Below are positions 23,443 to 56,612 of a stretch of DNA of 64,000 nt, piece by piece. Numbering within the stretch: position 1 is the stretch's first letter; each line of letters opens with the position of its first letter. The stretch lies in assembly GCF_006782915.1 (NCBI RefSeq), contig NZ_VCNP01000015.1, forward strand, positions 1-64,000. The letters run 5' to 3'. A program made the position numbers and the translations under genes. Under the pieces are notes generated by a model, which was given only the letters and a program-made list of their open reading frames with translations, had not been told where the DNA came from and did no database searches. This DNA comes from Streptomyces calvus (GTDB taxonomy: Bacteria; Actinomycetota; Actinomycetes; Streptomycetales; Streptomycetaceae).

Positions 23443-23709
23443 ATGGGCAAGGTCACGGCCGGCGAGGTCCAACAGTGGCTGATCGAGAAGATCGCGGAGC
23501 GGCTCGGCGAACAGCCCTCGGCCATTCCTCCGGGCCAGTATTTCGACGAACTCGACATGGACAGCACGGAGGCTCTGATCATCGCGGGTGAAATGGAGAG
23601 CTGGCTGGGCTTCGAACTGGGCACCACGGCGCTGTGGTACCACCCGACCATCGAGGCCCTGTCGGCGCACATAGCCGAGGAGAGTGCGCGGCATGGCGCG
23701 ACGGCCTGA
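23443..23709 (+). CDS. Discrete acyl carrier protein
   Basis: 88 residues. Phosphopantetheine Ser41 in FDELDMDSTEALIIAGEME, helix III ALWYHPTIEALSAHIAEE. This ACP style (short, WLGFELG before a YHPTIEAL helix) is typical of stand-alone ACPs beside PUFA/hgl-like PKS genes. AAAGGA at 23430-23435 supports ATG 23443. It is first in the 23443-46672 transcription unit and overlaps the thioesterase gene by 17 nt. It may hold a starter unit or receive the finished chain. Confidence 0.9.
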   Translation: MGKVTAGEVQQWLIEKIAERLGEQPSAIPPGQYFDELDMDSTEALIIAGEMESWLGFELGTTALWYHPTIEALSAHIAEESARHGATA

Positions 23710-24630
23710 CGCGACGTCGCGGCCGAAGCTGCTGATACGGCACCGGCAGGCCGCGCCCGGCGCGGACACCGTCTACGCGGTGCACCCGGGCGCGCTGCCC
23801 GTCGGCCTCTGGGCCGGCCTGGCCGGCGCGCTGCCGCGGGAGACCGGGTTCGCCGTGCTCGACCTGGGTGCGGTGCCCGAGTACGGGGAGGCCGCGCTCG
23901 CCCCGGAACTCTCCCGCCTGACGGTCGGTCACCTCGTCGACCTGCTGGCCACCGCCTACCGCGCGGACCGCGCCGACGGCGACGGCCTCGGTGACGGCGA
24001 CGGCGACGGCGCGGGCACCGTGTTCGTCGGCTGGTCGTTCGGCGGGGTGCTCGCCCACGGGCTGACGGAACGGCTGGAGCCGGCCGAACGGCCGCGCGCC
24101 GTCGTGCTGTTGGACAGCATCGCCCCGACGGACGCCTACCAGCACACCGAGGGCGAGCCGATCGACCCGGCGATCGTCCTGCGCTGGTTCGCGATGTTCC
24201 TGGGCGCCCGCCGCGGCGCCGAGGTGCGTCCGCGTCCCGTGCCGCCCGGCACGGACACCGACGCCGCGCTGGCGCTGCTGCTCGACGACGCGATCGCCGC
24301 CGGCGCGCTGCCGCCGGACACGCCCATGGCCGGCATGCGCAAGCTCTTCGAGGCCTATACGGCGGGACTGCTGCGCAACAACCGGCTCACCGCCCCCTAC
24401 CGCCCGGCGCCCGCCGCCGTCCCCCTCGTCCAGATCAAGGCCGCCGACAGTCTGGTTCCGGCGGATCCGACGCTGGGCTGGGGCGAGCTGGCGGGCCGCG
24501 GGCTCACCACCCACTCCGTGCCCGGCGACCACTACACCATGCTGATCCGCCCGGACGCCTCGCAGGCCACAGCCGGACTCCTCCCCCTCCTCCGCCCGGC
24601 GCCGCTCGTCACGACCCGGAGGCCCTCGCC

Positions 24631-24634
<4 letters not shown>
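23693..24634 (+). CDS. Alpha/beta-hydrolase thioesterase
   Basis: 313 residues. VYAVHPGALPVGLWAGLAGAL (strand/oxyanion region) is split here by its own motif VHPG; nucleophile Ser115 in FVGWSFGGVLAHG and catalytic His280 in SVPGDHYTMLIRP. Similar to type I/II thioesterases of polyketide and non-ribosomal systems, so it should release or edit acyl-ACP chains of the PUFA-like synthase. A Gly/Asp repeat (DGDGLGDGDGDGAG) interrupts the region before the nucleophile. ATG 23693 has GAGGAG upstream; GTG 23684 is a less likely start. The stop overlaps the PKS GTG as GTGA. Confidence 0.85.
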
Positions 24635-31899
<7,265 letters not shown>

Positions 31900-31991: not shown

Positions 31992-34900
31992 ATGAGCAGA
32001 TACGCGATCGTCGGGATCTCCTGCCTGTTCCCCGGCGCCGGCACTCCCGAGGAGTTCCGGCACAACCTGCGCACCGGGGCGGACAGCCGCCGGGACGGGG
32101 GCGAGGAGGTCTTCGGGCCGGCGCTCGACGAGCGTGACCTCGACCCCCGCCACCGCATCACCTCCCGTCGCGGCGGGTTCGTCACCGACTTCGAGTTCGA
32201 CCCGACCGGCTACCGCCTGGACGCCGGTCACCTGGCCCGGCTGGACCGGATCTTCCACTGGTCCCTGTACGCGGCCCGGGAGGCGCTGCGCGACTGCGGC
32301 GCGGACGGGCAGTCCGCGACGCTGGCCCGCACCGCCCTGGTGATGGGCAACTACTCGTTCCCCACGCCCACTTCGGCCCAGGTGAGCGTTCCGCTGGCGC
32401 AGGAGGCCGTGCTCGCCGGGCTGCGCCGCGCGGACCTGCCCGAGCTGGCCGGACTGCCGGGCGCCCGGCCGCTGGTCGACCGGGCGTCCGTGGTGCCGGA
32501 GAACCTGCGGGTGAGCGGTTCACCGGCCTCGGTCACGGCCGCCGCGCTGGGCCTCGGCGGCCCCCGCTACTGCCTGGACGCGGCCTGCTCGTCGGCGCTG
32601 TACGCGCTCAGCCTGGCCTGCGGTCACCTCGCCTCCGGGCAGGCGGACCTGGTCCTGGCGGGCGGGGTCTGCGCCCCGGACCCGACGCTGATCCATCTGT
32701 CGTTCTCCGATCTGCACGCCTATCCGCAGGACGGGTTCAGCCAGCCCTTCGACAGCCGTTCCGGCGGGATCGTCACCGGTCAGGGCGCCGGCATGGTCGC
32801 GGTCAAGCGGCTGGCGGACGCGCTGCGCGACGGTGACCGCGTGTACGCGGTGGTGGACGGCATCGGGCTGTCCAACGACGGCTCCGGACGCCATCCGCTG
32901 GTCCCGCGCAAGAGCGGCCAGCTGGACGCGCTGGCCCGCGCCTACGCGGACGCCGGGGTGGATCCGGCCGCCGTCGACTACCTGGAGTGCCACGCCACCG
33001 GCACGCCGATCGGGGACGCCACGGAGGCGGAGTCCGTCGCCGAGTTCTTCGGCGCGCACGGCCGGGTGCCGCTGCTCGGCTCGGTCAAGGGCAACATCGG
33101 GCACCTGCTGACCGTGGCCGGTCTGAGCAGTCTGCTCAAGGTGGTGCTGGCCATGGAGGACGGCACCATCGCGCCGACGATCGGCGTCGGCCGGCCGATC
33201 TCCTCACCGGACGGGCGGGTCGGCGAGCGGTCCCTGGTGCGCACCGCGCGGCCGTGGCCGACGGGACCGGGTCCGCGCCGGGCGGCGGTGTCGGCGTTCG
33301 GGTTCGGCGGCACCAACGCGCACGTGGTGCTGTCGGACGCCACGTCCGCGTCCGCGCAGTCCGACGTCCCGGACGCCTCCCCCGCCGTGCCGCCCGCGCT
33401 GGACGTGGTGGGTCTGGGCGCGCACTTCGGGGCGTGGGAGACCGTGGACGCCTTCGAACGGGCCGTCCACCGGGGCGAGCACGATCTGCGTCCGCTGCCC
33501 GGGCAGCGCTGGCGGGGACTGGACCGCACCGACGGCGGCACCCTGGAGGAGGCGGGCCTCACCGGTGGCGCCCCGCACGGGGCGTACGTCGACGGGGTCG
33601 AGGTGGACCCGGCCGAACTGCGGGTGCCGCCGTCGGACCTGCGGATCTACAACCCGCAGCACGCGCTGATGACCAGGGTCGCCGACGAGGCGCTGCGCGA
33701 CGCGGGCTACCGGCTGGGCGCAGGGCCGGGCGACACGCCCGAGCCGCGCCGGGTGGCCGTGGTCGTGGTGACCGAGATCGAGCCGTACACGCACGCCCGG
33801 CTGAGCCGCTACGGGCTCGGGGCGTTCCTGCGCCGCGAGTTCGACGCGGCGGGCATCGACCTCACCGAGGAGCAGCGGGCGGCGCTCGCCGAGGTGTCCC
33901 GGGACGCGGTGGTCGACCCGATCGGCGCCAACGAGGTGCTCAGCTACATCGGCAACGTCATGGCCGGGCGGATCTCCTCCCGGTGGAACCTGACCGGCCC
34001 GTCCTTCACCCTGTCCGCCGACGGCGCGGGCACCGCGGAGGCGCTGGAGGTGGCACGGCTGCTGCTGCTCGACCCGGACCTGGAGGCGGTGCTGGTCGGC
34101 GCCGTCGACCTGGCCGGCTCCGCCGAGAACCTGCTGACCCGTCAGGACCTGACCGGCGAGCCGGGATTGTCGTTCGGGCGGGACGGCCGGGGCCGGCGGG
34201 TCGGTGAGGGCGCCGGTGCGCTGGTCGTCACCCGCGCGGACACCGCCGGCAACCGCGGCCGCGTGCACGCCCGGATCGACGGGACGGCCCTGCGGTACGC
34301 GCAGGCGGCCGGCACCGTGCCCGGCGCTGACGCCGGGCCGCTGGCCGAGGCGGCGCGGGCCGCGCTGGCGCAGGCGGGCGTCGACGCCGCCGACGTCGGC
34401 TATCTGGAGGCGCACGCCGACGGCACGCCGGAGACGGACCGCACGGAGATCGCCGCGCTCGCGCAGGTGTACCGCGCCGGTGCCGGCAGCACCGCCCTGG
34501 GCAGTGCCAAGGCGCAGCTCGGTGACACCGGCTGCGCCGCCGGGATGGCGGGGCTCATCCGGGCCGTGCTGTGCCTGCGGCACGCGTATCTGCCCGGCAC
34601 GCGCGGCTGGCTGCGCCCGGAGGACGATCTCGCCGAGGACTTCGCGGCGTCCGCCTTCCACGTGCCGGAGACGTCCCGGCCGTGGCTGCGCGAGCGGGCG
34701 GGGACCCGCCGGCACGCCGCGGTGAGCATGCTGGGCGCGGGCGGGGCGCACGCGCATGTCGTCCTGTCGTCGGTGCCGGACGCCGACCGCCCCCGTCCGG
34801 TGGCCGACTGGCACCGCGCGGGCGGTCCGGTGCTGCTGGCGCTGGGCGCCGGGACGGTGGACGGACTGGTCGCCGAGGCGGAGCGGTACCGCGCGCTCCT

Positions 34901-37900
34901 CGACGACGGCGCGGACCCGCGGGCGCTGGCCCGGGAGGCGGCCGGCCGGCTCGACGGCCGGCGGCTGCGGGTGGTGCTGGTCGGCCAGGACCGCGAAGGG
35001 CTGCTGAAGCAGCTGGAGTCGGTGGGCCGTGACGTGCCGGAGGCGTACGCGGCCGGACGGGAGTGGGCCACGCCGGCCGGTTCGTTCTTCACTCCCCGGC
35101 CGCTCGGTCCCGACGCCCGGGTCGCCCTGGTGTACCCGGGCGCCTTCAACAGCTATCCGGGGCTGGGCGCCGACCTGTTCCGGGCCTTCCCGGAGCTGCT
35201 GGACCGTTTCGAGGGGCAGGCCGCGGAGCCGGCCCGGATGCTGCGCGCGGCCCAGCTGTACCCGCGGTCCCGCGAGGCGCTCACCCGGACGGATCTGATG
35301 CGGCTGGAGGAACGGCTCGGCGCCGACGTGCCGTTCATGCTCGCCACCGGCACCAGCTTCGCGATCCTCTACACCGCCCTGGTGCGCGAGGTGCTGGGGG
35401 TGACCGCGCACGGCGGGTTCGGCTACAGCCTCGGCGAGTCGAGCATGCTGTTCGCGACCGGCGGCTGGGATCCGGCCGGCCGCAGCGACTCGCTGATCAG
35501 CGACAGCCCGGTCTTCCAGGACCGGCTGTGCGGACCGCGGCGCACCGTGCGGGAGGCGTGGGGTCTGCCCGCCGGGACGCCCGACGCGGCGGTGTGGGCG
35601 TCGCACATCCTGCTGTCGCCGGCGGAACCGGTGCGCGAGGCGCTCGCCCGCTACGACCGGGTGTTCCTCACCCATGTGAACACGCCGCGGGAACTGGTGA
35701 TCGCCGGTGATCCGGCGCAGTGCCGGGCGCTGATCGAGGAGGTGGGCTGCCGTGCGGCCCGCTCCCCGGTGAACGTGGTGATGCACTGCCCGGTGGTGGA
35801 CGCCGAGTTCGACGGACTGGCGCGGCTGAACGACTACCCCACCGGTTCGTTCGGCGACCTGGAGCTGTTCAGCGCGTACGACTACCGGCCGCTGCCCGCC
35901 GAGCGGCTGGCCGACTCGCCGCGGCGCATCGCGACGACGCTGCGCTCGACGATCGACTTCCCGCGGCTGGTGCGGGCGGCGTACGAGCGGGGCTACCGCT
36001 ACTTCATCGAGGTGGGGCCCGGCGCGACCTGTTCCCGGTGGATCCACGACACGCTCGGCGACGCGCCGCACATGGCCGCCTGCGTGGACCGCCGCGGGGT
36101 GCCCGCCACGACGCCGCTCGCGCATCTCGCCGCCCGGCTGGTCGGGCACGGGCTGCCGGTGGACCTGACGGCCCTGCTGGAGCGGGAGCCCGTCGCGGCC
36201 GCGGCGCCGTCCCGTCGGCTGCCGACGGTCCGGGTGGGCCTCGGCGAGCCGATCCCGGACCGCGTCGCCCGCGAGGCGGCCGCGGCCCTGTCCGCCCACC
36301 GCCCCACGGTCCCGGCGGCCTCCGCCCACCGTCCCGACGCCCCGGCGCCGACCGTCCACCGTCCCGACGCCCCGGCGCCGTCCGTCCACCGTCCCGAGGT
36401 CCCGGCGCCGTCCGCGCACCGTCCCGGTGTCCCGCCGGCCGCCGGCCGGCCCGGGTCCGCCGCCCCTGTCCCGTCCGTTCCGCCGGAGGTGCCCGCCACC
36501 ATGCCCGCCGATCCGACCCTCGAGATGCCGGAGGTCATCACCTTCGACGGGGATCCGGCCACGGTCCTGCCCTGGGCCCCGCCGGCCCCGGCCGTGCCCC
36601 GGACACCCGCCCGAGCGCACGCACCCGCACCGCCCGCACCGCAGGAACTCGCCCCGCGGGAACCCGCCCCGCACGCGCCCGTCGCGCCGGGCGCGCCCGC
36701 GGCCGCCCGTTCCGGCCGCGGTCCCGCCGCCGACCTGGTGCGGGACCTGCGCCGGGAGATCGTCGCCGCGCACGGTGTGGTGATGGAGACGCACCGCGTC
36801 CTCCAGGCGGCCACCCTGGACCGTACGGAGGCCCTGCTCACGGCGCCCGCGGCCACCGCGCCGCCCGCCCCCGCCGCAGCGCCCGCCGCCCCGCCCGCCC
36901 CGCAGGTGCCCGCGCCCCCGCCGACGCCCGCCCTGCCCCCGGCCCCGCCGGTGCCCGAGGCGGCCCGCGAGGTCCACGAGGGTGTGATCTGGAACGAGGC
37001 GGACCTGCTGGAGTTCGCCACCGGTTCGGTGGCCAAGGTGTTCGGCCCCGAGTTCGCCGAGATCGACGGCTTCCGCGCCCGGGTGCGGCTGCCGGCACCG
37101 CCGTACCACTTCGTCACCCGGGTGACCGCCCTGGACGCCGAGCCGGGCGTGCTCCGGCCGGCCCGGATCACCACCGAGTACGACGTGCCCGAGGACGCCT
37201 GGTACGCCGTCGACGGCGGTGTGCCGCCCGCGGTGACCGTGGAGTCCGGGCAGTGCGACCTGCTGCTGGTCAGCTATCTGGGCATCGACTTCCGCAACAA
37301 GGGCGAGCGGGTCTACCGGCTGCTGGACAGCTCGCTGGTCTTCCGGGGCGGACTGCCGACGACCGGGCAGACGCTGCGTTACGAGATATCCATCGACCGG
37401 TTCGTCCACCAGGGCGAGACGACCCTCTTCTTCTTCAGTTACGACTGTTACGCCGACGGCGAGCTGATCCTCGAACTCCGCGACGCCTGCGCCGGTTTCT
37501 TCAGCAAGCAGGAGCTGGACACGCCGCTCGGCATCGTCCTCACCGACCAGGACCGGGCCCGGCGCGCGGCACTGCCCAAGGGCACCTTCAAGCCGCTGGC
37601 GTACGCGCGCAAGGACCATCTCGACCGTGAAGACCTGGAGTTGCTGGCCCAGGGCCGCCCCGGTGACGTGTTCGGACCGGAGCACGCGCAGGACCCCGGC
37701 ATCAACCCGGCGCTGCGACTGCCGGACGCGCGGCTGCGGATGGTCGACGAGGTCACCGTCGACCGCAAGGGCGGCCCGTGCGAGCTGGGCCTGCTGACCG
37801 CCGTCAAGCACCTGGAGCCGGACGCCTGGTACTTCACCTGCCACTTCCCCGACGACCCGGTGCTGGCCGGTTCCCTGATCGCCGAGGGCGCGATCCAGCT

Positions 37901-39368
37901 GCTGCAGATCTACCTGATGCACCAGGGCATGCACCTCACCCTGCCGGACGCCCGCTTCCAGACGGTGCCCGGACGGCGCATCGACGTGCAGGTGCGCGGC
38001 CAGGTCACCCCGAAGGACACGGAGATCCGCTACGAGGTGGAGGTCACCGAGCTGACGCTGCTGCCCCGGCCCACCGTGATCGCCGACGTCCTCATCTACC
38101 TCGGGGACAAGCCGGTGGTGCGGATGCAGAACCTCGGTCTGCAGATCGTGGAGAAGCCGGGGACGCCGTACCGGCCGGAGACCGGTGGTGTGCCGCGGTT
38201 CCTCGGCCGCCGCAACCGGGCCGGCGAGGCCGCCATGATCAACGAACTGCACCTGGCGCACTCCGCCAAGGGCCTGCTGGACATGGCGATGGGCCCGGAG
38301 TTCGAGATCTACCGCACCTCCCGCGCTCCTTACATTCCCAACGGCGACTTCCAGTTCGTCGACCGGGTCATGTCGCTCACCGGCACCCGCGGCGACCTGA
38401 GCCCCGGCTCCGAGATGGTCACCGAGTACGACTCGCCCGAGGACGCCTGGTACTACCGGGAGAACTCCTCGCCGTCGATGCCGAACTGCGTGTACATGGA
38501 GAGCTCGCTGCAGGCCGCCATCTTCCTCGGCTACTACCTGGGGGCGACGCTGCGCGAGCCGCAGGAGGAGTACTCCATCCGCAACCTCGACGGCCGCGCC
38601 ACCCTGGTCAAGGACATCGACCTGCGCGGCAAGACGGTCCGGCACCACTCCAGGCTGCTGATGACGAGCGTCGTGTCCGGTGCCGTGCTGCAGAACTTCT
38701 CCTACGAACTCTCCGCCGACGGCGAGGTGTTCTACACCGGTGAGTCGCTCTTCGGCTACTTCGCGCCGGCCGCGCTGGCCAACCAGGTGGGCCTCGACAG
38801 CGGCAGCTACCGGCCGACGTGGATCGAGTCGGAGAAACCGGCCCCGGAGCGGGTGCGGCGCATCGAACTGGGCCCGGACTCACCGGCGTTCCGCGACCCG
38901 TCCGGTGGCGGGCTGCATCTGCCCGGCGGCCGCTTCGACCTGGTCGACCGGGTCGACCTGGTCGCGGACGGCGGCCGGCACGGCGCGGGCTATCTGCACG
39001 GCCACCGCAGCATCCGGCCCGACGAGTGGTACTTCGACTGCCACTTCCACCGCGACCCGGTGATGCCGGGCTCGCTGGGCGTCGAGGCGGTGCTGCAGGC
39101 GCTGCGCCTGTTCGTGCTGGACCAGGACCTCGCCCGCGGCATGACCCGGCCCCGCTTCGCCATGGCCACCGACGTGGAGATGTCCTGGAAGTACCGGGGT
39201 CAGATCCTGCGCGACGACCGCGAACTCTTCTTCGACGTGCACGTCAAGGAGGTCCGCAAGGAGGCGGACCGCCTGCTGCTGATCGCCGACGCGGACCTGT
39301 GGAAGCCGGGCCTGCGCATCTACGAACTCACCGACGTCGCCGTCGAGGTCCGCCCCGATGCCGGCTGA
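31992..39368 (+). CDS. PfaC-like PKS: KS-CLF-AT-DH-DH
   Basis: 2458 residues. KS about 1-440: Cys199 (CLDAACSSALYA), ECHATGTPIGD, GNIGHLLTVAG. Chain-length-factor-like KS about 460-930: the Cys position is Gly678 (FTLSADGAGTAEAL) and the third motif reads AQLGDTGCAAG, with Asp for His, so it is catalytically dead. Acyltransferase about 1020-1400, PfaB-type, Ser1146 in GFGYSLGESSM. Pro/Ala linker with five 10-residue HRPDAPAPSV-like repeats, then a helical segment. Two FabA-like double hot-dog DH domains: about 1670-2050 (His1951, CHFPDDPVLAGSL) and 2060-2450 (His2351, CHFHRDPVMPGSL). The first has Ala where DPVMPG normally has Pro. Domain order matches Pfa3-type subunits of actinobacterial/myxobacterial PUFA synthases, without the acyltransferase that makes glycerolipids. 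Expected to act with the PfaA-like protein to introduce or isomerise double bonds. Confidence 0.94.
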   Translation: MSRYAIVGISCLFPGAGTPEEFRHNLRTGADSRRDGGEEVFGPALDERDLDPRHRITSRRGGFVTDFEFDPTGYRLDAGHLARLDRIFHWSLYAAREALRDCGADGQSATLARTALVMGNYSFPTPTSAQVSVPLAQEAVLAGLRRADLPELAGLPGARPLVDRASVVPENLRVSGSPASVTAAALGLGGPRYCLDAACSSALYALSLACGHLASGQADLVLAGGVCAPDPTLIHLSFSDLHAYPQDGFSQPFDSRSGGIVTGQGAGMVAVKRLADALRDGDRVYAVVDGIGLSNDGSGRHPLVPRKSGQLDALARAYADAGVDPAAVDYLECHATGTPIGDATEAESVAEFFGAHGRVPLLGSVKGNIGHLLTVAGLSSLLKVVLAMEDGTIAPTIGVGRPISSPDGRVGERSLVRTARPWPTGPGPRRAAVSAFGFGGTNAHVVLSDATSASAQSDVPDASPAVPPALDVVGLGAHFGAWETVDAFERAVHRGEHDLRPLPGQRWRGLDRTDGGTLEEAGLTGGAPHGAYVDGVEVDPAELRVPPSDLRIYNPQHALMTRVADEALRDAGYRLGAGPGDTPEPRRVAVVVVTEIEPYTHARLSRYGLGAFLRREFDAAGIDLTEEQRAALAEVSRDAVVDPIGANEVLSYIGNVMAGRISSRWNLTGPSFTLSADGAGTAEALEVARLLLLDPDLEAVLVGAVDLAGSAENLLTRQDLTGEPGLSFGRDGRGRRVGEGAGALVVTRADTAGNRGRVHARIDGTALRYAQAAGTVPGADAGPLAEAARAALAQAGVDAADVGYLEAHADGTPETDRTEIAALAQVYRAGAGSTALGSAKAQLGDTGCAAGMAGLIRAVLCLRHAYLPGTRGWLRPEDDLAEDFAASAFHVPETSRPWLRERAGTRRHAAVSMLGAGGAHAHVVLSSVPDADRPRPVADWHRAGGPVLLALGAGTVDGLVAEAERYRALLDDGADPRALAREAAGRLDGRRLRVVLVGQDREGLLKQLESVGRDVPEAYAAGREWATPAGSFFTPRPLGPDARVALVYPGAFNSYPGLGADLFRAFPELLDRFEGQAAEPARMLRAAQLYPRSREALTRTDLMRLEERLGADVPFMLATGTSFAILYTALVREVLGVTAHGGFGYSLGESSMLFATGGWDPAGRSDSLISDSPVFQDRLCGPRRTVREAWGLPAGTPDAAVWASHILLSPAEPVREALARYDRVFLTHVNTPRELVIAGDPAQCRALIEEVGCRAARSPVNVVMHCPVVDAEFDGLARLNDYPTGSFGDLELFSAYDYRPLPAERLADSPRRIATTLRSTIDFPRLVRAAYERGYRYFIEVGPGATCSRWIHDTLGDAPHMAACVDRRGVPATTPLAHLAARLVGHGLPVDLTALLEREPVAAAAPSRRLPTVRVGLGEPIPDRVAREAAAALSAHRPTVPAASAHRPDAPAPTVHRPDAPAPSVHRPEVPAPSAHRPGVPPAAGRPGSAAPVPSVPPEVPATMPADPTLEMPEVITFDGDPATVLPWAPPAPAVPRTPARAHAPAPPAPQELAPREPAPHAPVAPGAPAAARSGRGPAADLVRDLRREIVAAHGVVMETHRVLQAATLDRTEALLTAPAATAPPAPAAAPAAPPAPQVPAPPPTPALPPAPPVPEAAREVHEGVIWNEADLLEFATGSVAKVFGPEFAEIDGFRARVRLPAPPYHFVTRVTALDAEPGVLRPARITTEYDVPEDAWYAVDGGVPPAVTVESGQCDLLLVSYLGIDFRNKGERVYRLLDSSLVFRGGLPTTGQTLRYEISIDRFVHQGETTLFFFSYDCYADGELILELRDACAGFFSKQELDTPLGIVLTDQDRARRAALPKGTFKPLAYARKDHLDREDLELLAQGRPGDVFGPEHAQDPGINPALRLPDARLRMVDEVTVDRKGGPCELGLLTAVKHLEPDAWYFTCHFPDDPVLAGSLIAEGAIQLLQIYLMHQGMHLTLPDARFQTVPGRRIDVQVRGQVTPKDTEIRYEVEVTELTLLPRPTVIADVLIYLGDKPVVRMQNLGLQIVEKPGTPYRPETGGVPRFLGRRNRAGEAAMINELHLAHSAKGLLDMAMGPEFEIYRTSRAPYIPNGDFQFVDRVMSLTGTRGDLSPGSEMVTEYDSPEDAWYYRENSSPSMPNCVYMESSLQAAIFLGYYLGATLREPQEEYSIRNLDGRATLVKDIDLRGKTVRHHSRLLMTSVVSGAVLQNFSYELSADGEVFYTGESLFGYFAPAALANQVGLDSGSYRPTWIESEKPAPERVRRIELGPDSPAFRDPSGGGLHLPGGRFDLVDRVDLVADGGRHGAGYLHGHRSIRPDEWYFDCHFHRDPVMPGSLGVEAVLQALRLFVLDQDLARGMTRPRFAMATDVEMSWKYRGQILRDDRELFFDVHVKEVRKEADRLLLIADADLWKPGLRIYELTDVAVEVRPDAG
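36297..36446 (+). repeat. Five 30-bp repeats encoding a Pro-rich interdomain linker
   Basis: Units starting at 36297, 36327, 36357, 36387 and 36417 encode HRPxxPAPSV-type decapeptides between the AT and DH parts of the PfaC-like protein. The repeat keeps frame and is likely a flexible spacer that expands by slippage. Confidence 0.85.
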
Positions 39369-39393
39369 CCACCGGCACAGCCGAGGAGCCACG

Positions 39394-41019
39394 TTGTCCA
39401 TGAGCACCACACCCGAGACGCTCCGCTGGTACGGGGACGGGTACCCGAGCACCGATCCGGCGGGGATCCACCAGGCCCTGACCAGGGTGGAGCAGCCCTG
39501 TTTCATCGTGTCGACCGCGCAGGGCGCCGGCGCGGCGGCCGGCGGCACGGCCGCCGCGGGCGGCGACGGGCCGGCGGTGCTGGCCGCCGTGCCCGCGCTG
39601 CCGCCGCACCGCCTCGGCTCGGCCGCCTTCCGCGCCGCGCACGGAGTGCGGCAGGCGTACATGGCGGGCGCGATGGCCGGCGGCATCGCCTCCGCCGACC
39701 TGGTGATCGCCCTGGCCCGGCAGGGGTTCCTCGCCTCGTTCGGCGCGGCCGGACTGCTGCCGGGCACGATCGAGCAGGCGCTGGCCCGCTTCGCCGCCGA
39801 GATCCCCGGACTGCCGTACGCCGTCAACCTCATCCACAGCCCCAGCGAGGAGCGTCTGGAGCGCGAGGCGGTCGAGCTGTTCCTGCGGCACGGGGTGCGG
39901 TGCGTGGAGGCGTCCGCGTTCCTGGGTCTGACGCCGCACCTGGTCCGCTACCGGCTGGCCGGACTGCGGCGCGACCCGTCGGGCCGGATCGTCGCCGAGA
40001 ACCGGGTCGTCGCCAAGGTGTCGCGGGCCGAGACCGCCGAGCGGTTCATGCGCCCGGCGCCCACCGCGATGGCCGAGGCGCTGCTGCGGGACGGACTGAT
40101 CACCGCCGAGCAGGCGCAGCTCGCCCACCACCTGCCGCTCGCCGACGACATCACCGTGGAGGCGGACTCCGGCGGGCACACCGACCGGCGGCCGCTCCCG
40201 GCGCTGTTCCCGGTGATCGCGCGGCTGCGCGACCAGATCCAGCACGAGCACCGCTACGCCACGCCGGTGCGCGTCGGCGCGGCCGGCGGACTGGGGACGC
40301 CGGTCGCCGTCGCCGCCGCCTTCGCGATGGGCGCCGCCTATGTGGTGACCGGCTCCGTCAACCAGTCCTGCCTGGAGTCGGGCACCTCCGCCGCCACCCG
40401 GGAACTCCTCGCGCAGGCGGAGGTGACGGACTGTGTGATGGCGCCGGCGGCCGACATGTTCGAGATGGGCGTCGAGCTGCAGGTGCTGCGCCGCGGCTCG
40501 ATGTTCCCGATGCGGGCCGCTCAGCTCTACCAGCTGTACCAGGCGTACGACGGCATCGACGCGCTGCCCGCGGTGCAGCGGGAACGGCTGGAGTCCCAGG
40601 TGTTCCGGCGGCCGCTGGAGGACGTGTGGAAGGACTGCGTGGAGTACTTCAGCCGGCGTGACCCGGACCAGCTGCGGCGCGCCGCGGACAGTCCCAAGCG
40701 GCGGATGGCCCTGGTGTTCCGCTGGTACCTGGGCATGGCGTCGCGCTGGGCGGTGACGGGGCAGCCGGACCGGGCGGCCGACTACCAGATCTGGTGCGGG
40801 CCGGCGATGGGCAGCTTCAACGCCTGGGTGTCCGGCAGCTACCTGAAGACCCCGGAGAACCGGACGGTCGCCGACGTCGCCCACCATCTGATGCGGGGCG
40901 CCGCCTTCCACACGCGCGTCGCCCAGCTGGCCACCGCGGGCGTCACCCTGCCCGCGTCGGCCGCCGACTACCGCCCGGTGCCGCTGGAGCCGGCCGCGCT
41001 GCCGGAGGCCGCCCGATGA
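39394..41019 (+). CDS. PfaD-like trans-acting enoyl reductase (FMN)
   Basis: About 541 residues, nitronate-monooxygenase-like TIM barrel with FMN site, as in PfaD and trans-AT ER proteins: RVEQPCFIVSTAQGAG near the N-terminus, GVRQAYMAGAMAGGIASADLVIAL, LPYAVNLIHSPSEERLEREAVELFL (shown here only by its LIHSP core), VRVGAAGGLGTPVAVAAAFAMGA, and MAPAADMFEMGVELQVLRRG. It would reduce selected enoyl intermediates of the synthase. TTG 39394 is preferred (GAGGAG at 39383-39388, 5 nt spacing); ATG 39400 is possible, while the upstream ATG 39358 lies inside the PfaC-like gene. The stop overlaps the next ATG (ATGA). Confidence 0.92.
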   Translation: MSMSTTPETLRWYGDGYPSTDPAGIHQALTRVEQPCFIVSTAQGAGAAAGGTAAAGGDGPAVLAAVPALPPHRLGSAAFRAAHGVRQAYMAGAMAGGIASADLVIALARQGFLASFGAAGLLPGTIEQALARFAAEIPGLPYAVNLIHSPSEERLEREAVELFLRHGVRCVEASAFLGLTPHLVRYRLAGLRRDPSGRIVAENRVVAKVSRAETAERFMRPAPTAMAEALLRDGLITAEQAQLAHHLPLADDITVEADSGGHTDRRPLPALFPVIARLRDQIQHEHRYATPVRVGAAGGLGTPVAVAAAFAMGAAYVVTGSVNQSCLESGTSAATRELLAQAEVTDCVMAPAADMFEMGVELQVLRRGSMFPMRAAQLYQLYQAYDGIDALPAVQRERLESQVFRRPLEDVWKDCVEYFSRRDPDQLRRAADSPKRRMALVFRWYLGMASRWAVTGQPDRAADYQIWCGPAMGSFNAWVSGSYLKTPENRTVADVAHHLMRGAAFHTRVAQLATAGVTLPASAADYRPVPLEPAALPEAAR

Positions 41020-42734
41020 GCCGCACCCTGACACCCGAGGGCGTGGAGCGGCTGCTCGGTGACCCCGAGTCGGCGGACAACCCGTACGGGTTCGCCGCGG
41101 CCGTGGCCCGGGACGAGGCCGACGCCCATCCCGACGAGCTGTGCCGGCGGCTGGTCTCGGCGGGCTTCCACCTCAACTACCTGCCCCGGGAGTGGGGCGG
41201 CGGGTTCGACTCGTTCGACCGCGCGCTGACCCTGGTGCGCGCGGCGGCCCGCAGGGACGTGAACGTGATGCCGGGCACGATGTTCGGCATCATCGCCGCC
41301 ACCTGCCTCCAACTGCACGGCAGCGAGCGGCAGCGCGAGCGGGTGGCCCGGATCCTGACCGGCGGCGGCTCCGTCGGGTTCGCCCTCACCGAGGCCGGGC
41401 ACGGCAGCGACCTGCTGGCGGGCGAGGTGCGGCTGGACGGGGACGGGCGGCTGCACGGCGAGAAGTGGATGGTCGGCAACGGCATGCGCTGCGAGGCCGT
41501 GTACGTGGTGGCGCGCACCGGTGAGCGCGGGCCCGGCGCGTTCTCCGCCTTCCTGCTGGACGCCGACGCGGACGGCCTCGTGCGCGAACCGGCCCCGCGC
41601 ACCGGCGGCATGCGCGGCGTGGACACCGCGCGGCTGCGCTTCACCGGGGTGCGGGTGCCCGAGGACGCCCTGGTCGGCAAGGCCGGCGAGGGCCTGGAGG
41701 TGGCGATCCTCGCCCAGCAGGCGGTACGCCTGATGAGTCTGGCGGGCAGCCTCGGCTGCGCGGACACGGCGCTGCGGCTGACCCTCGGTTTCGCCGCCGG
41801 GCGGCGGGTCGCCGGCACACCGCTGCTGGAGGCGCCGCACTCGCGGCGGGAGCTGGCGGTCGCCTCGGCGGCGCTGCTGGCGGCGGACGCGGTGGCGCTG
41901 GCCGCCGCCCGCGGCATCCATGTCGTCCCGGAGGTGTTCAGCGTGTGGGCGCCGGCCGCCAAGCACGTGGTGGCCGAGGCGGGCGACGAGCTGGTGCGGC
42001 GCTGCGCCGGTGTCCTCGCCACCCGCTCGGTCCTGCGCGAACAGGCGCCGGGCGGGGGCCTGTTTCAGAAGCTGCAGCGCGACACGGCGGTGGTGCGGGT
42101 GATCGACGCCAGCCCGCTGGCCAACCTGCGCTCCTACGCCGCCCAGATCCCCGCCCTGGCCGGCCGCGACGAGAGGCCCGAACCGGCCGTGCTGCACCGG
42201 ATCTTCGACCTGGGCGCCGACCTGCCGCCGTACCGGCCGGAGCGGCTGGACCTGGTGGCCCGGCGGGCCGATCCGGTCCTGCCGGGGCTGGTCGCCGTGG
42301 CGGGTGCGGTCCGCGCGGAGCTGACCGATCCGCGTGCCGCGGCGCTGGTGGGGCGGCTGGCGGACGCCGTCGCCGCGCTGGGCGCCGAGGTGGCCGCCGC
42401 ACGGCGGCGCGGCGCCGACCCCAACGCCCTGACCGATGCCGCCGAGCGCCATGCCTGGCTGCACGCCGCCGCCGCGTGCGTGCACCTGTGGTGGGCCAAC
42501 CGGCAGCGGTCGCTGTACGGCGGCGAGCCGGGCGCGTCCGGCTGGCTGCGCGCCGTGCTGTCCTTCCTCCTCGACCGGGCCGCCGGCACCGATCCCCGCC
42601 GGCACGGCCCCGACCTGCTGCCCGCCCTCGACACCGCGGACGCCCTGCGGAAAGGCCACCGGCTCATGACCGCCCTGCCCGTTCCCCTCGCTCACGAATC
42701 CGCCCGCCCGTGCGACCCGATGGAGGCCTCCTGA
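41016..42734 (+). CDS. Long acyl-CoA dehydrogenase homologue 1
   Basis: 572 residues with ACAD fold: N-terminal helices, FALTEAGHGSDLLAG (FAD/substrate loop), GEKWMVGNGMRCEAVYVVAR, VDTARLRFTGVRVPEDALVG, and a ~180-residue C-terminal extension beyond the usual 380. In the motif that normally reads YEGT and carries the catalytic Glu, this protein has VIDASP, with Asp364 in the Glu position. It may oxidise acyl-ACP or acyl-CoA chains made by the PUFA-like synthase, or act as a partner of the paralogue encoded next. Overlaps both neighbours by 4 and 1 nt, so it is tightly co-expressed with the synthase. Confidence 0.85.
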   Translation: MSRTLTPEGVERLLGDPESADNPYGFAAAVARDEADAHPDELCRRLVSAGFHLNYLPREWGGGFDSFDRALTLVRAAARRDVNVMPGTMFGIIAATCLQLHGSERQRERVARILTGGGSVGFALTEAGHGSDLLAGEVRLDGDGRLHGEKWMVGNGMRCEAVYVVARTGERGPGAFSAFLLDADADGLVREPAPRTGGMRGVDTARLRFTGVRVPEDALVGKAGEGLEVAILAQQAVRLMSLAGSLGCADTALRLTLGFAAGRRVAGTPLLEAPHSRRELAVASAALLAADAVALAAARGIHVVPEVFSVWAPAAKHVVAEAGDELVRRCAGVLATRSVLREQAPGGGLFQKLQRDTAVVRVIDASPLANLRSYAAQIPALAGRDERPEPAVLHRIFDLGADLPPYRPERLDLVARRADPVLPGLVAVAGAVRAELTDPRAAALVGRLADAVAALGAEVAAARRRGADPNALTDAAERHAWLHAAAACVHLWWANRQRSLYGGEPGASGWLRAVLSFLLDRAAGTDPRRHGPDLLPALDTADALRKGHRLMTALPVPLAHESARPCDPMEAS

Positions 42735-44539
42735 TGTCCCAGGCCGAGCTGACCGAACTGGCCCGGCGGTTCGAGGAGTACCTCGGAGACCCGCACGACC
42801 CGGCGAGCCGGATGCCGTTCACCACCGTCCTCGAGCACGACGAGCGCGACGCCTTCCCGTACGCCTTCGTCGGCATGCTGCGCCGCTGGGGCTTCCTGGA
42901 CTACGGGCTGCCCGCGGAGCAGGGCGGCAAGGCCGGCAATCCGGAGACCGGTTTCACGCTGATGCGTCTGGTGGCCCGCCGCGACGGCGCCACCGCCATC
43001 GCGCTCGGGCTGACCCAGGCCGCGTTCACTCCGGTGTGGATCGCCGGCACGGACGAGCAGAAGCGGCGGCAGATCGCCGACATCCACGCCGGTGTCGGGC
43101 TGTCGTGGGGGCTGTCCGAGGCCGCGCACGGCAGTGACCTGCTGAACAACGAGGTCGTCGCCGAGCGGGTCCCGGGCGGCTACCGCCTCACCGGTGAGAA
43201 GTGGCCGATCGGGAACGCCACCTACTCCGACCGCATGGTCGTCTTCGCCCGCACCGGGCCGCGCCGCGGCGCCGGGGACTACTCGATCCTGGTGGTCGAC
43301 AAGTGGCGGGCCGAGGCGGAGACGGTGCGCGAGACGCACCCGGTCAAGCAGCACGGCGTACGGGCCCTGGACCTGAGCGGGCTGCGGTTCGACGGCGTGT
43401 TCGTCCCCGAGGAGGACCGGATCGGCGCCGAGGGGCAGGGCCTGGAGATCGCCCTGAAGACCAGCCAGACGGCGCGCCTGGTGATCCTCAGCCTCGCCCT
43501 GTCCGGGGTGGACACCTCGCTGCGCACGGCCCTGGAGTTCGCGCAGGACCGGGTGCTGTTCGACCGTCCCGTGGTGGAGGTGCCGCACACCGGGCGCCAG
43601 CTCGCGGAGTCGTTCGCGGAGCTGATGGTCGCGGACGCGGTGTGTCTGGGCGCCGTGCGCAGCCTGCAGGCCTCGCCGGCGCAGGTGAGCGTGTGGTCGT
43701 CGGTGGCCAAGTACGTGGTGCCGACGGTGCTGGAGGAGACGCTGTCGCGGCTGAACCTGGTGCTCGGGGCGCGGGTGTTCCTGCGGACGCACCCCCGGTT
43801 CGGCATGCACCAGAAGATGCTGCGGGACCTGCTCGTCACCAACATGGCCGACGGCAACACCGTGGTGAACCTGCGCAACATCGGCCACCAGCTGCCCTCG
43901 CTGCTGGAGCGGGCGCTCACCGCCGGGCCGGAGGTGCGGGCCGCGGCGGCGGACCGCACGGCCGTGCTGTACGGCATGGACACCGAGCTGCCCGTGTACC
44001 GGCCGCATCTGCAGGAGTTGTCCAGCCGGGGCCTGGACGACGCGGTCCTGGCCGCGCCTCGAGCGCTGGAGCGGCTGCGCGCGCTCGCCGACGAGGCCGG
44101 CGACAAGGACCGGGACCGGCTCGTGGCGGCCGCCGACATCGCCGGGGAACTCCTGGGCCGACTGGGCCCGTTGCGGGACCGGCAGGCCCGGTTGCAGGCG
44201 GACCTGGGCCGCGGCTACGCCCACTCGGCGGAACTGTTCGACCTGGCGCAGGAGTACTGCCTGCTGCACGCCGCCGCGGCGTGCGTCCACACCTACGTCC
44301 ACTCGCACGGGGCGATGGCCGCGCCGCTGCCCAGTCCCGCCCTGCTGCTGCTCCAGCTGGAGCGGCTGCGCAAGCGGTTCCACCCGTACGAGCCGTACCG
44401 CGACCCGGACGCGGTGGCGGAGGTGCTGGACCTGCTGACCCGGCTGCACGACGACAACCGGCTGCTGTCGCACTGGCCGATCGCCCTGGCCGAGCGGACG
44501 GCGCCCACCGAGGGCGTGCGATGCGCCGAGGCCCGCTGA
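42734..44539 (+). CDS. Long acyl-CoA dehydrogenase homologue 2
   Basis: 601 residues, paralogous in layout to the preceding protein: WGLSEAAHGSDLLNNEVV, GEKWPIGNATYSDRMVVFAR, VRALDLSGLRFDGVFVPEEDRIG, ALEFAQDRVLFDRPV, and a long C-terminal helical extension. The catalytic-Glu motif reads NMADGNT with Asp373 aligned to Glu. Two adjacent, tightly coupled ACAD genes suggest a heteromeric dehydrogenase acting on carrier-bound acyl chains, for example to add a double bond. TGATG junction with the first; 19-nt overlap with the PPTase frame. Confidence 0.85.
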   Translation: MSQAELTELARRFEEYLGDPHDPASRMPFTTVLEHDERDAFPYAFVGMLRRWGFLDYGLPAEQGGKAGNPETGFTLMRLVARRDGATAIALGLTQAAFTPVWIAGTDEQKRRQIADIHAGVGLSWGLSEAAHGSDLLNNEVVAERVPGGYRLTGEKWPIGNATYSDRMVVFARTGPRRGAGDYSILVVDKWRAEAETVRETHPVKQHGVRALDLSGLRFDGVFVPEEDRIGAEGQGLEIALKTSQTARLVILSLALSGVDTSLRTALEFAQDRVLFDRPVVEVPHTGRQLAESFAELMVADAVCLGAVRSLQASPAQVSVWSSVAKYVVPTVLEETLSRLNLVLGARVFLRTHPRFGMHQKMLRDLLVTNMADGNTVVNLRNIGHQLPSLLERALTAGPEVRAAAADRTAVLYGMDTELPVYRPHLQELSSRGLDDAVLAAPRALERLRALADEAGDKDRDRLVAAADIAGELLGRLGPLRDRQARLQADLGRGYAHSAELFDLAQEYCLLHAAAACVHTYVHSHGAMAAPLPSPALLLLQLERLRKRFHPYEPYRDPDAVAEVLDLLTRLHDDNRLLSHWPIALAERTAPTEGVRCAEAR

Positions 44540-45354
44540 CCGGCGGGCGGGCCCCGCGGGAGGCGACGGTGGCCGACCTGTGGACGCTGCCCGAGCACCG
44601 GGTCGCCGAACTGGCCGACCGCTCGGGCGGGTCGGCCCTGCTGACGCCGCAGGAGCGCCGGCGGCACCGCCGGCTCAGGACGTCCGGGGCGCGCCGCCGC
44701 TTCCTGGGCGGTCGGCTGCTGTGCCGGCTGGCGCTCAGCTCCGTCACCGGGCTGCCGCCGGACGGCTGGCGGTTCGACCGCACCCGGTACGGCCGTCCGG
44801 AGCTCGCCGGGGACCACGGCGGTCTGCGCTTCAACCTGTCCCACACCGACGGCCTGATCGCCTGCGTGGTGACCCGGGGCCGGTCCTGCGGTGTGGACGT
44901 GGAGCGGGTGCCGCTGGACCGCGCCACGGCCGGTGCGCTGCGCGACCACTTCGACGCCGCGCAGCGGGCGGCGTTCGACGCGGCGCCGGACCCGGTCGCG
45001 GCGCTGGGCGAGCAGTGGGTCCTGACGGAGGCGTATCTGAAGGGCCTCGGCACGGGACTGGCGTACGGAGTACGGCAGTTGAGGTTCGAGCCTCGCGGGC
45101 CCGGGTGGTTCGCCGTGGCCGACGGGCGGCGGCCCGCCGCCGGCCGGCGCTGGCGCATCGACCTGCTGCGCCCGGGACCCGGTCATCTCCTGGCCGTCGC
45201 CGTGGAGGGCGGCACCGGCCCGCCGCGCCGGCACCCAGCGGCCGGGCAGGCCCTCGCCGACGCCGCCACGACCCCGCACCCCGACCCGCACGCGGGACCG
45301 CACCCGGCCCCACCGCACGACCTCTCCCCCGACCCCTTGTCGACCGTCACCTGA
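44521..45354 (+). CDS. Sfp-type 4'-phosphopantetheinyl transferase
   Basis: 277 residues. RRFLGGRLLCRLAL, LRFNLSHTDGLIACVVT (short form NLSHT), GVDVERVP (Mg-binding Asp/Glu) and EQWVLTEAYLKGLGTGL, with Thr where many Sfp proteins have Lys in WxxKEA. This is the PfaE equivalent that activates the tandem ACPs, free ACP and aryl carrier protein by transfer of phosphopantetheine from CoA. The last ~45 residues are a Pro/His-rich tail. ATG 44521 lies within the end of the ACAD gene with GAGGG upstream; a GTG near 44569 with GGGAGG upstream is an alternative start. Confidence 0.9.
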   Translation: MRRGPLTGGRAPREATVADLWTLPEHRVAELADRSGGSALLTPQERRRHRRLRTSGARRRFLGGRLLCRLALSSVTGLPPDGWRFDRTRYGRPELAGDHGGLRFNLSHTDGLIACVVTRGRSCGVDVERVPLDRATAGALRDHFDAAQRAAFDAAPDPVAALGEQWVLTEAYLKGLGTGLAYGVRQLRFEPRGPGWFAVADGRRPAAGRRWRIDLLRPGPGHLLAVAVEGGTGPPRRHPAAGQALADAATTPHPDPHAGPHPAPPHDLSPDPLSTVT

Positions 45355-45370: not shown

Positions 45371-46672
45371 ATGCCGCAGCACACCCCGCCGCGCGTCGCC
45401 GTCATCGGCTCCGGCCCCGCCGGCCTGTCCGCCGCCTACCACCTGCGTGAACGCGCCCGGATCACCGTCTTCGAACGCGAGCCCCGGCCGGGCGGCCACG
45501 CCAACACGGTGGAGGTCGAGGAGAACGGCCGCGTGATCGGCCTGGACACGGCGTTCATCGTGTTCAACCGCCGTTTCTACCCCCGGCTGTGCGGCTTCTT
45601 CGACGACCTGGGCGTGGAGACCGTCGCCCACCCGGGCGGCTTCACCTTCTTCGACCTGGACAGCGGCCTCGAGTACGGCACGGACGAACTCGAACTCGAC
45701 GAGGCGGCGATCGAGGAGCGCTACGCCGCGAGCCATCCCGGCTTCCCGGGTGTCTGGCGGGAGGTGCGCCGCTTCCACGAGGAGAGCCGCCGGGACTTCG
45801 CCCGCGGTCGCGCCGACATGTCCATGGGCGAGTACCTGGACAAGGGCGGCTACAGCGAGGAGTTCCGCCACTCGTACCTGATCATGCTCTGCTCGGCCGT
45901 CTGGTCGGTGCCGGCGGAGCTGGTGTGGGAGATGCCGGCGGCCACGGTGATCGCGTTCTTCGTGGGCCACGACGAGGGCGGCCTCGGCGGCCGGCGCGTC
46001 GACTGGCGCACGGTCGGCGGCGGCTCGATCTCCTACGTGCGCAAGGCGCTCGCCGCGACCGGCCCGGAGCTGCGCACCGGTGAGCCCGCCACCGCGGTGC
46101 GGCAGGAGGCCGACGGCGTCGCCGTCACCACCGCCTCCGGCACCACGCGGTTCGACTACGCCGTGCTGGCCACGCACGCCGACGAGGCGGCCGCCCTGCT
46201 GGAGAACCCGACGGACGCGCAGCGCTCGGCCCTGGAGGGGATCCGCTACAGCCGCTCGACGGTGGTGCTGCACACCGACCCGTCCCTGATGCCCGCCGAC
46301 CGGGACGGCTGGCTGGCGTGGAACTACGGCAAGGTGCGGGCGGACGGCGCGACCCGCTGCTTCGTGACCTACTACCTGAACCGGCTGCAGGACTTCACGG
46401 CGGAGAAGGACTACTTCGTCACCCTGGACCCGCCCCGGCCGATCGACCCCGAGGCGGTCATCGAATCGTTCGACTACACGCACCCGGTCATCGACATGGG
46501 GCTGCGCGAGCGGCAGTCCGTGATCCACGGGGCGAACGAGGGCACGCGGGTGAAGCTGGCCGGGTCGTACTTCCACTCCAGGGAGCTCGGCCCGGACCTG
46601 ATCGGTTCGCACGAGGCGGCCTTCTCGGCGGGGGCGGACGCGGCGGACCGGATCCTCGACGAACTGTCCTGA
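45371..46672 (+). CDS. FAD-dependent amine-oxidase-like / phytoene-desaturase-like oxidoreductase
   Basis: 433 residues. Dinucleotide-binding start VAVIGSGPAGLSAAYHL, FEREPRPGGHANTVEVE, DTAFIVFNRRFYP and a C-terminal FAD-binding end (FSAGADAADRILDEL). The pattern is that of the COG2907 family of predicted NAD/FAD-binding proteins, related to carotenoid desaturases and often found beside fatty-acid modifying genes. A desaturase or isomerase role on the polyene or acyl product is plausible but unproven. It starts 17 nt after the PPTase stop with AAGGA spacing of 6, so it is the last gene of the synthase operon. Confidence 0.8.
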   Translation: MPQHTPPRVAVIGSGPAGLSAAYHLRERARITVFEREPRPGGHANTVEVEENGRVIGLDTAFIVFNRRFYPRLCGFFDDLGVETVAHPGGFTFFDLDSGLEYGTDELELDEAAIEERYAASHPGFPGVWREVRRFHEESRRDFARGRADMSMGEYLDKGGYSEEFRHSYLIMLCSAVWSVPAELVWEMPAATVIAFFVGHDEGGLGGRRVDWRTVGGGSISYVRKALAATGPELRTGEPATAVRQEADGVAVTTASGTTRFDYAVLATHADEAAALLENPTDAQRSALEGIRYSRSTVVLHTDPSLMPADRDGWLAWNYGKVRADGATRCFVTYYLNRLQDFTAEKDYFVTLDPPRPIDPEAVIESFDYTHPVIDMGLRERQSVIHGANEGTRVKLAGSYFHSRELGPDLIGSHEAAFSAGADAADRILDELS

Positions 46673-46779: not shown

Positions 46780-47430
46780 CTACTCGGGGGTGCCGCTGAA
46801 CAGCCGGGCCGACTTGTCCTCCTGGGCGAGGCGGCGCAGGGCGAGCAGGGCGGGCTCCAGCAGCACCGAGACCAGCACGGCGCGTTCGGCCAGCTCCAGC
46901 AGGCCGGACGCGCCGTTCATCTGTTTGACGTCGAGTTCCGACATGCGGTCGGTGAGGCGGGCGTAGGGCAGCAGGGACTGCCAGCCGATGCCGGCGTCCA
47001 CGTCGGCCAGGGCGTCCAGGACGTCGCCGAGGGTCTGGATGGCGGCGGTGCCGGGCGACACCTCCCAGCCCATCTCGGTGATCAGCCGGCGGGCGTCGGC
47101 GACACCGGGCGTGTCGCCTTCGGCGGTCTCCTCCTCCTTGGCCTGCTTCTTCAGCTTGGTGGCCGGCCGGGCGTCGGTCACGATGCCGAAGATCTGGTGC
47201 AGGTCGCCCTCCTCGGTGATGGCGCCCAGGATCTCCTTCACCGCGCTCACCGACAGCCGCCGCACGCCGACCAGGGTGCGGATCAACCGCAGGCGGCGCA
47301 GGTGCTCCTCGCCGTACTCGGCCTGGTTGGCGGCCGTGGCCTGGCCCTGCGGCAGCAGACCGTCCCGCAGGTAGTACTTGATCGTGGGGATGGAGACGCC
47401 ACTGCGGCGGCTGAGTTCCGAGATCTTCAT
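46780..47430 (-). CDS. MerR-family transcriptional regulator
   Basis: 216 residues. N-terminal MerR winged helix: MKISELSRRSGVSIPTIKYY, LRDGLLP, YGEEHLRRLRLIRTL, with the following dimerisation helix. The C-terminal effector region is long and lacks the Cys ligands of metal sensors, so it probably senses an organic compound. GTGGAG precedes ATG 47430. It is divergent from the DUF3291/MFS pair and probably controls it. Confidence 0.87.
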   Translation of the reverse strand: MKISELSRRSGVSIPTIKYYLRDGLLPQGQATAANQAEYGEEHLRRLRLIRTLVGVRRLSVSAVKEILGAITEEGDLHQIFGIVTDARPATKLKKQAKEEETAEGDTPGVADARRLITEMGWEVSPGTAAIQTLGDVLDALADVDAGIGWQSLLPYARLTDRMSELDVKQMNGASGLLELAERAVLVSVLLEPALLALRRLAQEDKSARLFSGTPE

Positions 47431-56414: not shown

Positions 56415-56612
56415 CCCCGCGGCACGCACGGCGCCCACGGGCCACGGACGACGTGGCCCGTGGGCGCCGCCGTGTCTCCGGCCATCCGCACACCCGCACA
56501 CCCGGCGACGGACCCGTCCCGCATCCGGCACGCACACCGTGCCGCAGGACCACCGGGCCTCCCCACGAACGACGGCCCGGCACCCCTACGGGCCCGCGGG
56601 CCCGCATCCCCG

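Follow-up and report, generated by a model that had tools for sequence, protein, structure and literature searches.

The window analysed here is a 64,000-nucleotide stretch of Streptomyces calvus (contig NZ_VCNP01000015.1, positions 1 to 64,000; host genome of 8.0 Mb in 68 contigs). It contains a pfa-type operon for a polyunsaturated fatty acid (PUFA) synthase, in which two adjoining genes encode long acyl-CoA dehydrogenases (ACADs), designated A and B. We propose, with a probability of about 0.6, that A and B are flavin adenine dinucleotide (FAD)-dependent dehydrogenases of acyl chains bound to the acyl carrier protein (ACP) of the PUFA synthase, that an Asp serves as the base for the alpha proton, and that they belong to one family with the paired ACADs of cassettes containing a fatty acyl-AMP ligase (FAAL) and have been recruited by a PUFA synthase. 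By analogy with such cassettes, A and B would most likely add double bonds near the carboxyl end of carrier-held chains. This proposal is favoured by the invariance of the Asp in both types, the clade structure of the family, the gene order PfaD–A–B, the ACP and FAAL genes beside related pairs, and the four ACP domains of the PfaA-like synthase together with a 4′-phosphopantetheinyl transferase (PPTase). The window pair is regarded as the pfa-linked Asp/Asp form of the already known paired ACADs of carrier-bound lipids.

Asp364 of A is located in the motif RVIDASPLAN and Asp373 of B in the motif MADGNTVVN. HMMER aligned Asp373 with the Glu of IYEGTSEVQ in butyryl-CoA dehydrogenase (5ol2_C). 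The three PDB alignments of A stop short of the catalytic column, and Asp364 was placed by family alignments, where it falls in the column of Glu376 of medium-chain acyl-CoA dehydrogenase (MCAD). Neither protein is of the MCAD type, with Glu at the YEGT position, nor of the type of isovaleryl-CoA dehydrogenase (IVD) and long-chain acyl-CoA dehydrogenase (LCAD), with Glu on helix G, which is replaced by Val in A and Ala in B according to the family alignments. An earlier, sequence-only reading had given the coordinates and lengths of both genes and the replacement of Glu by Asp364 and Asp373, and all of these are confirmed by the translations, HMMER and the family alignments. The same reading had named a Glu at the IVD/LCAD place as the finding that would speak against it, and at the sequence level this Glu is absent from A and B. 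Both proteins possess the ACAD superfamily fold, with PF02771, PF02770 and PF00441 above the gathering score; the Pfam search of A and B detected only these three domains, and all NCBIfam matches are far under their cut-offs. A and B share 36% identity over 514 amino acids in a match that reaches into their C-terminal extensions. The closest named relative of B, with 90% identity, is found in Streptomyces sp. NRRL WC-3626.

Among 20 other open reading frames (ORFs) of the ACAD superfamily in the same genome, the base column is occupied by Glu in 13, Asp in three (two of them doubtfully aligned), Gly in two, Pro in one and His in one. Three of those without Glu in this column have Glu at the helix-G position. 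One Asp-bearing ORF, L099 (motif IADGPDEVH), is short and lies outside the A/B family; in appearance we take it to be ACAD10/11-like. Since Asp is fixed in both the A and B types, as opposed to the mixed residues in the other ACADs of the genome, the Asp at the base column is real, conserved and beyond chance.

Of 199 genomes of the genus, 80 contain relatives of A and B with E values of 1e-40 or lower; a phylum-wide draw of 396 genomes gave four at 1e-50, and the genome of the window is counted in both sets. Residues were tabulated with hidden Markov models (HMMs) trained on the classes of the alignment and applied to 135 different ORFs, including cut ORFs and excluding the own-genome controls. 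The base column contains Asp in all 21 A-type proteins, all 26 B-type proteins and all 39 D-type proteins, the Asp-bearing partners of the cassettes. The H-type has His in 39 of 43 (one Ala, one Ser and two ORFs without coverage), and the E-type has Glu in 6/6. The alternative of a relocated IVD/LCAD-type Glu was rejected, as it is absent from 105 of 105 aligned proteins, in which the column contains Ala, Val, Thr or Ser. One mis-started ORF of the 105 (1364 amino acids, L073) was excluded from the residue tables and from the tree.

The tree, built by a quick method from 110 rows that bear the class names, groups the A-type (support 100), the B-type (97) and the His-type (100) in separate clades. 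The Asp-partner clade includes 25 of 26 rows (support 99), the Asp row L046 from Bradyrhizobium grouping with the His clade (91). The whole long-ACAD family is set apart from the six included canonical ACADs of the own genome with a support of 100. The branch of the pfa pair (87) is placed, with weak support, next to that of the Asp/His pair (81). Support falls to 81-91 where the clades join one another, and the long branches are uncertain. The position of A and B in separate clades and their 36% identity imply that they did not arise by recent duplication. The A and B types share a mean identity of 30-34% with the Asp and His types and belong with them to one family with an extension. A single Glu member from Kutzneria sp. 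CA-103260 (L044) is sister to the B clade, and the ancestral residue of that branch may thus have been Glu. Its gene is located between thioesterase-like and helix-turn-helix genes, upstream of a PfaA-like gene.

ACAD10 and its relatives offer a precedent for the residue. Like A and B, ACADs 10-12 have Asp at the position of MCAD Glu376 (PMC11153573). When Asp1040 of ACAD10 is changed, the ACAD activity is lost, and the product of the enzyme is a 2-trans-enoyl thioester (PMC11342911). As ACAD10 needs its Asp, Asp at the base column, by analogy, implies neither a dead enzyme nor an odd regiochemistry. Unlike the window pair, ACAD10 and ACAD11 are linked to a kinase and use CoA thioesters, with no need of an added electron acceptor (PMC11342911). 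The Asp of ACADs 10-12, its requirement in ACAD10, the published cassettes described below and the ACAD HliR together lead us to read A and B as putative Asp-based acyl-ACP dehydrogenases.

The genes for A and B are embedded in the pfa-type operon, which extends from 23684 to about 46672 of the window and comprises, with the adjoining regulator, the following features:

23684..24634, plus strand: thioesterase-like protein, first gene of the operon (Pfam PF00975, E 1.3e-07)
24631..31899, plus strand: PfaA-like synthase with ketosynthase (KS), acyltransferase (AT), four ACP, ketoreductase and dehydratase domains (TIGR02813, Pfam)
31992..39368, plus strand: PfaB/PfaC-like synthase with two KS-type regions, an AT-like region and two FabA-type dehydratases (Pfam)
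39358..41019, plus strand: PfaD enoyl reductase (TIGR02814, 647 bits, cut-off 449)
41016..42734, plus strand: ACAD A, 572 amino acids, with Asp364 at the catalytic-Glu column and Val at the IVD-Glu column
42105..42107, plus strand: codon of Asp364 of A (direct reading)
42165..42731, plus strand: C-terminal extension of A, about residues 384-572 (core 3-383, from the model)
42734..44539, plus strand: ACAD B, 601 amino acids, with Asp373 at the catalytic-Glu column and Ala at the IVD-Glu column
43850..43852, plus strand: codon of Asp373 of B (direct reading)
43910..44536, plus strand: C-terminal extension of B, about residues 393-601, helical and perhaps like that of very-long-chain acyl-CoA dehydrogenase (VLCAD) (model and core limits)
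44521..45354, plus strand: PPTase, start codon uncertain (Pfam PF01648, PF22624)
45371..46672, plus strand: FAD amine-oxidase/HpnE-like flavoprotein (Pfam PF01593; TIGR03467 under its cut-off)
46780-47430, minus strand: MerR regulator

The membership of these genes in a PUFA synthase cluster follows from the PfaA and PfaD families above their cut-offs, the FabA-type dehydratases and the PPTase. The PfaA-like protein scores 1915 bits against TIGR02813 (cut-off 1010) and has four PP-binding stretches in Pfam; the AT match of the PfaB/PfaC-like protein is under its Pfam gathering score. The 1-4 nt overlaps described in the sequence-only reading are found as 4 nt between PfaD and A (ATGA) and 1 nt between A and B (TGATG). 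The gene of the FAD amine-oxidase/HpnE-like protein is present in 19 of 24 pfa loci, and the protein possibly contributes a further oxidation to the pathway.

In all 22 pfa stretches that include PfaD, the order PfaD–A–B is kept; two of these (L032 and L067) are, to judge from its length, one contig, and in L073 A and B are in one long open frame. An annotated plasmid of Streptomyces globosus has the same order with Asp/Asp. Related pfa-ACAD clusters are found on plasmids of S. globosus LZH-48 and S. albogriseolus LBX-2 (L129, L131), and the pathway can thus be plasmid-borne. The S. globosus copy is located near a type I-E CRISPR-Cas operon.

A second arrangement is shown by 27 loci with an Asp/His pair, the residues of which were confirmed singly. 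In 26 of them the His-type gene has an ACP gene immediately downstream, and in 23 a FAAL gene lies immediately upstream of the Asp-type gene (21 from the gene table and two more from tblastn). On a Burkholderia glumae plasmid the genes are annotated as fatty acyl-AMP ligase, ACAD, ACAD and ACP, with the residues Asp/His. The window pair differs from this layout, having PfaD and PPTase genes as neighbours, Asp in both proteins and separate clades. The proposal of the sequence-only reading that the two proteins form a carrier-protein dehydrogenase gains support, by analogy, from this context of FAAL-ACAD-ACAD-ACP relatives and the PfaD–A–B order. A cassette FAAL-ACAD-ACAD-ACP-[KS-AT] recurs in L047 (159-13867), L048, L049, L051-L054, L056, L058 and L061-L065. 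In L047, the only locus scanned further, it is followed by KASIII and 2-oxoacid-type acyltransferase genes. From its look, the L047-type cassette may be of the acyl-tetronate type of cluster. In five genus genomes (L111-L115), a single Asp-type ACAD (FDGSEPVC) is followed by an ACP and a condensation-domain protein. The genome of the window also encodes two adjoining short ACADs (L104, C52:485900-488750), one of which has the IVD-type Glu and its neighbour a His in the base column; this short pair parallels the Asp/His pairs.

Ligase-ACAD-ACAD-ACP cassettes of this kind have been assigned in print to 2-enoyl or 2,4-dienoyl tails. The corallorazine genes crz3-6, encoding a ligase, two ACADs and an ACP, are assigned to the unsaturated tail, and the set recurs beside many nonribosomal peptide synthetase and polyketide synthase genes (PMC11342130). 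Tar5/Tar6 of taromycin and MlcH/MlcI of malacidin are assigned the delta2 and delta4 bonds (PMC9113097), and the ACAD pair RthI/RthJ of rotihibin the unsaturated tail (PMC8552735). PMC9113097 speaks of "no mechanistic studies" on such lipopeptide ACADs and relates that LipB was linked to a cis-delta3 bond by gene disruption. Like the window, the lipopeptide cassettes (crz3-6, RthH-K, Tar5/Tar6, MlcH/MlcI) have a tandem ACAD pair that serves carrier-bound acyl chains; the loci of this layout read here contain long members of the A/B family (544-677 amino acids among those aligned). They differ in that the window pair accompanies a PUFA synthase with no FAAL seen, falls in separate clades and is Asp/Asp instead of Asp/His. 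HliR and TcsD are, like A and B, ACADs of secondary metabolism: HliR carries out gamma,delta-dehydrogenation in vitro, and TcsD dehydrogenates a side chain and requires an ACP-bound substrate (PMC4768178). Unlike the window proteins, HliR is short (392 amino acids), single and likened to short-chain ACADs, the comparison being by description (PMC4768178). The shifted regiochemistry suggested in the sequence-only reading is possible by analogy with the gamma,delta activity of HliR (PMC4768178) and the cis-delta3 bond of LipB (PMC9113097), but the Asp gives no evidence for it.

AlphaFold models of A and B, built from the family alignments without ligand, have a mean pLDDT of 92.2 for A and 93.7 for B, and their extensions are confident except for the last 9-10 residues. 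From the limits of the structure matches, the ACAD core spans residues 3-383 of A and 1-392 of B, leaving extensions of about 189 and 209 residues, in good agreement with the approximately 200 residues expected earlier. Against solved ACADs the best Z is 34.8 for each core. In Foldseek, full-length B matches VLCAD (7s7g) over 587 columns with a TMq of 0.68 and a root-mean-square deviation (rmsd) of 11.6, and 3owa with a TMq of 0.65-0.67; short ACADs reach 0.55-0.58. In the alignment of whole B to VLCAD the rmsd ranges over 9.0-11.6. The full-length matches to VLCAD and 3owa thus have a TMq of 0.65-0.68, yet an rmsd of 6.5-11.6, and the modelled extension of B may be VLCAD-like in topology with differing domain angles. 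VLCAD, which is a dimer, combines an ACAD core with a helical C-terminal domain, and B may resemble it in this; it differs from B in its 18% identity in the matches, in having Glu and not Asp, and in the carrier-protein gene context of the window.

At the FAD site, A and B retain the canonical Glu, Gly-Ser-Asp and Arg columns. The sequence-only reading had considered a non-oxidising partner complex, and this idea is disfavoured, as both proteins keep these columns and an acid at the base column. At reference Phe277 (R..FG), the A-type has Gly in 15 and Ala in five of 20 proteins, and its Gly-Gly is mostly Ala-Thr; the B-type retains Phe277 in 21 of 26 and has Gly-Ala in 26 of 26. The His-type has the near-flavin consensus HEL.HGND in place of SEP.AGSD. 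The flavin-site classes were named by the tabulated columns, and the nine of 20 own-genome ORFs that make up the "canon" row were chosen for Glu, which makes these counts partly circular; the tree and HMM classes are the better basis. The Phe277 and Gly-Gly columns presumably touch the FAD of the partner subunit in canonical ACADs. The asymmetry of A and B at the flavin site is compatible, as far as the residues go, with a heteromer.

We propose the following route. The synthase would make an unsaturated acyl-ACP, on which B, with its canonical-looking loop ADGNTVVN, would introduce the 2,3 double bond. A would then make a second, conjugated double bond or share a heteromer with B. Of the two, B has the more canonical loop and is therefore preferred for the 2,3 bond. 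A possibly VLCAD-like extension might replace the second dimer of ordinary ACAD tetramers. In this route we infer the role of Asp as the base, the substrate, the carrier, the regiochemistry, the heteromer and the function of the extension.

Several observations weigh against this proposal. Among the more distant members of the family the base column varies between Glu, Asp, His, Ala and Ser, which leaves the role of Asp as the base insecure. The FAD-contact columns of reference Trp162, Thr164 and Gln343 are altered in A, B and most of the family. Neither a FAAL nor a stand-alone ACP was detected among the cluster genes scanned with Pfam and NCBIfam, so that only an ACP domain of PfaA could serve as the carrier. 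In G096 a B-type copy occurs without an adjoining A. The published lipopeptide ACADs are likened to the window pair by layout and description, not by sequence. The mirror-tree correlation of A with B, over 16 loci common to five genes, is 0.73, compared with 0.73-0.88 for A or B with PfaD, the PfaBC end and the FAD oxidase; the partial correlations are 0.31, 0.29 and -0.11, and co-evolution specific to A and B thus gave no clear signal. The literature searched contains no product of such a pfa-ACAD cluster. The rule that singles have Glu and pairs Asp/His, drawn from the four Glu members L019, L021, L031 and L044 (the flanks of L021 and L031 being too short to establish that they are single) and with the single Asp-bearing L046 of Bradyrhizobium known beforehand as an exception, failed on 20 fresh loci. 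The 17 with one ACAD in view have two Glu, five Asp, nine His and one Ser, and the three pairs are Asp with a cut His-type ORF, Asp/Ala and Asp/His. Pairing alone therefore does not predict the residue in the base column, and the base may lie outside this column altogether.

It is possible, though doubtful, that A and B form one heteromer with a single productive flavin site, the other subunit being structural or presenting the carrier protein. The mycobacterial ChsE4-ChsE5 is reportedly a heteromer of this kind. The tandem, overlapping or closely spaced genes would fit, as would the departure of the A-type, with B mostly keeping Phe, at the columns taken to contact the partner FAD, the altered near-flavin consensus of the His-bearing cassette partner and the short L104 pair with an IVD-type Glu in one protein and His in the other. 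However, Asp is retained in both window proteins, the mirror-tree shows no specific A–B signal, and the subunit that provides each FAD contact is our assumption. Furthermore, L119, L121, L124, L125 and L126 each have a single His-type ACAD with a FAAL gene on one side and ACP plus KS/AT genes on the other, and no further ACAD in the stretch covered, so that a changed base needs no partner. These ACADs stand alone and lack an acid in the base column. Their position in five loci also makes it unlikely that the His-type is a mere dead partner, an idea further weakened by L133, a Streptomyces plasmid locus in which a His-type ACAD is found beside an annotated carrier protein and PPTase.

A flavin-dependent but net redox-neutral step, an isomerisation or elimination, is improbable. 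It would have a model in Asp-bearing ACAD10 and ACAD11 with their independence of an added acceptor (PMC11342911), and it could bring the skipped double bonds of a PUFA synthase chain into conjugation. Yet Pfam sees only the three ACAD domains in A and B, the relatives are assigned in print to oxidative desaturation, and the Asp-bearing L099 is short and outside the family. The generic ACAD domains seen by Pfam and NCBIfam would also suit ordinary enzymes of CoA-level beta-oxidation or housekeeping that are merely located in the cluster. This is very unlikely, considering NCBIfam scores far under the cut-offs, the separation from the six canonical ACADs in the tree and the PfaD gene order kept throughout.

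Returning to the proposed dehydrogenation of ACP-bound chains, a less likely reading is that the base column of this family was refitted according to the position attacked: the Asp types would form the alpha,beta bond, and the His types and the pfa-linked A-type would act as vinylogous (gamma,delta) dehydrogenases, removing the C4 proton by means of His or a re-set Asp loop. One tandem pair would then yield a 2,4-diene on the carrier protein without the Glu of ordinary ACADs.

A type L secondary lipid (pfa) cluster with a fused pfaBC and a pfaD homologue, the product of which has not been demonstrated, is described in Streptomyces coelicolor (PMC3098273); compared by description only, it differs from the window in having pfaD at the 5′ end. 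The main text of PMC3098273 does not contain the term acyl-CoA dehydrogenase, and PMC13291983 uses "dehydrogenase" only once, in connection with an unrelated assay. The literature searched joins PUFA synthase, PfaD, acyl-CoA dehydrogenase and Streptomyces in no paper, a result that holds for that search only. Papers on an Asp91-type 1,4-dehydrogenase, looked for as a further parallel, yielded nothing of use. Elsewhere in the window, the region 54759-61738 contains a nitrite/sulfite reductase-like gene, followed on the opposite strand by genes for ABC transporters with an NMT1-like binding protein and for a GTP-binding protein of the EF-Tu type; these genes perhaps belong to sulfur assimilation and are unrelated to the pfa operon.

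The wider Asp/His split is the part most worth testing. The base-column Asp and His, kept in Streptomyces pairs and also present on a Burkholderia plasmid, offer a direct way to test the double bond made by each partner. The pair linked to the PUFA synthase indicates a Streptomyces lipid with what may be a conjugated system at its end.

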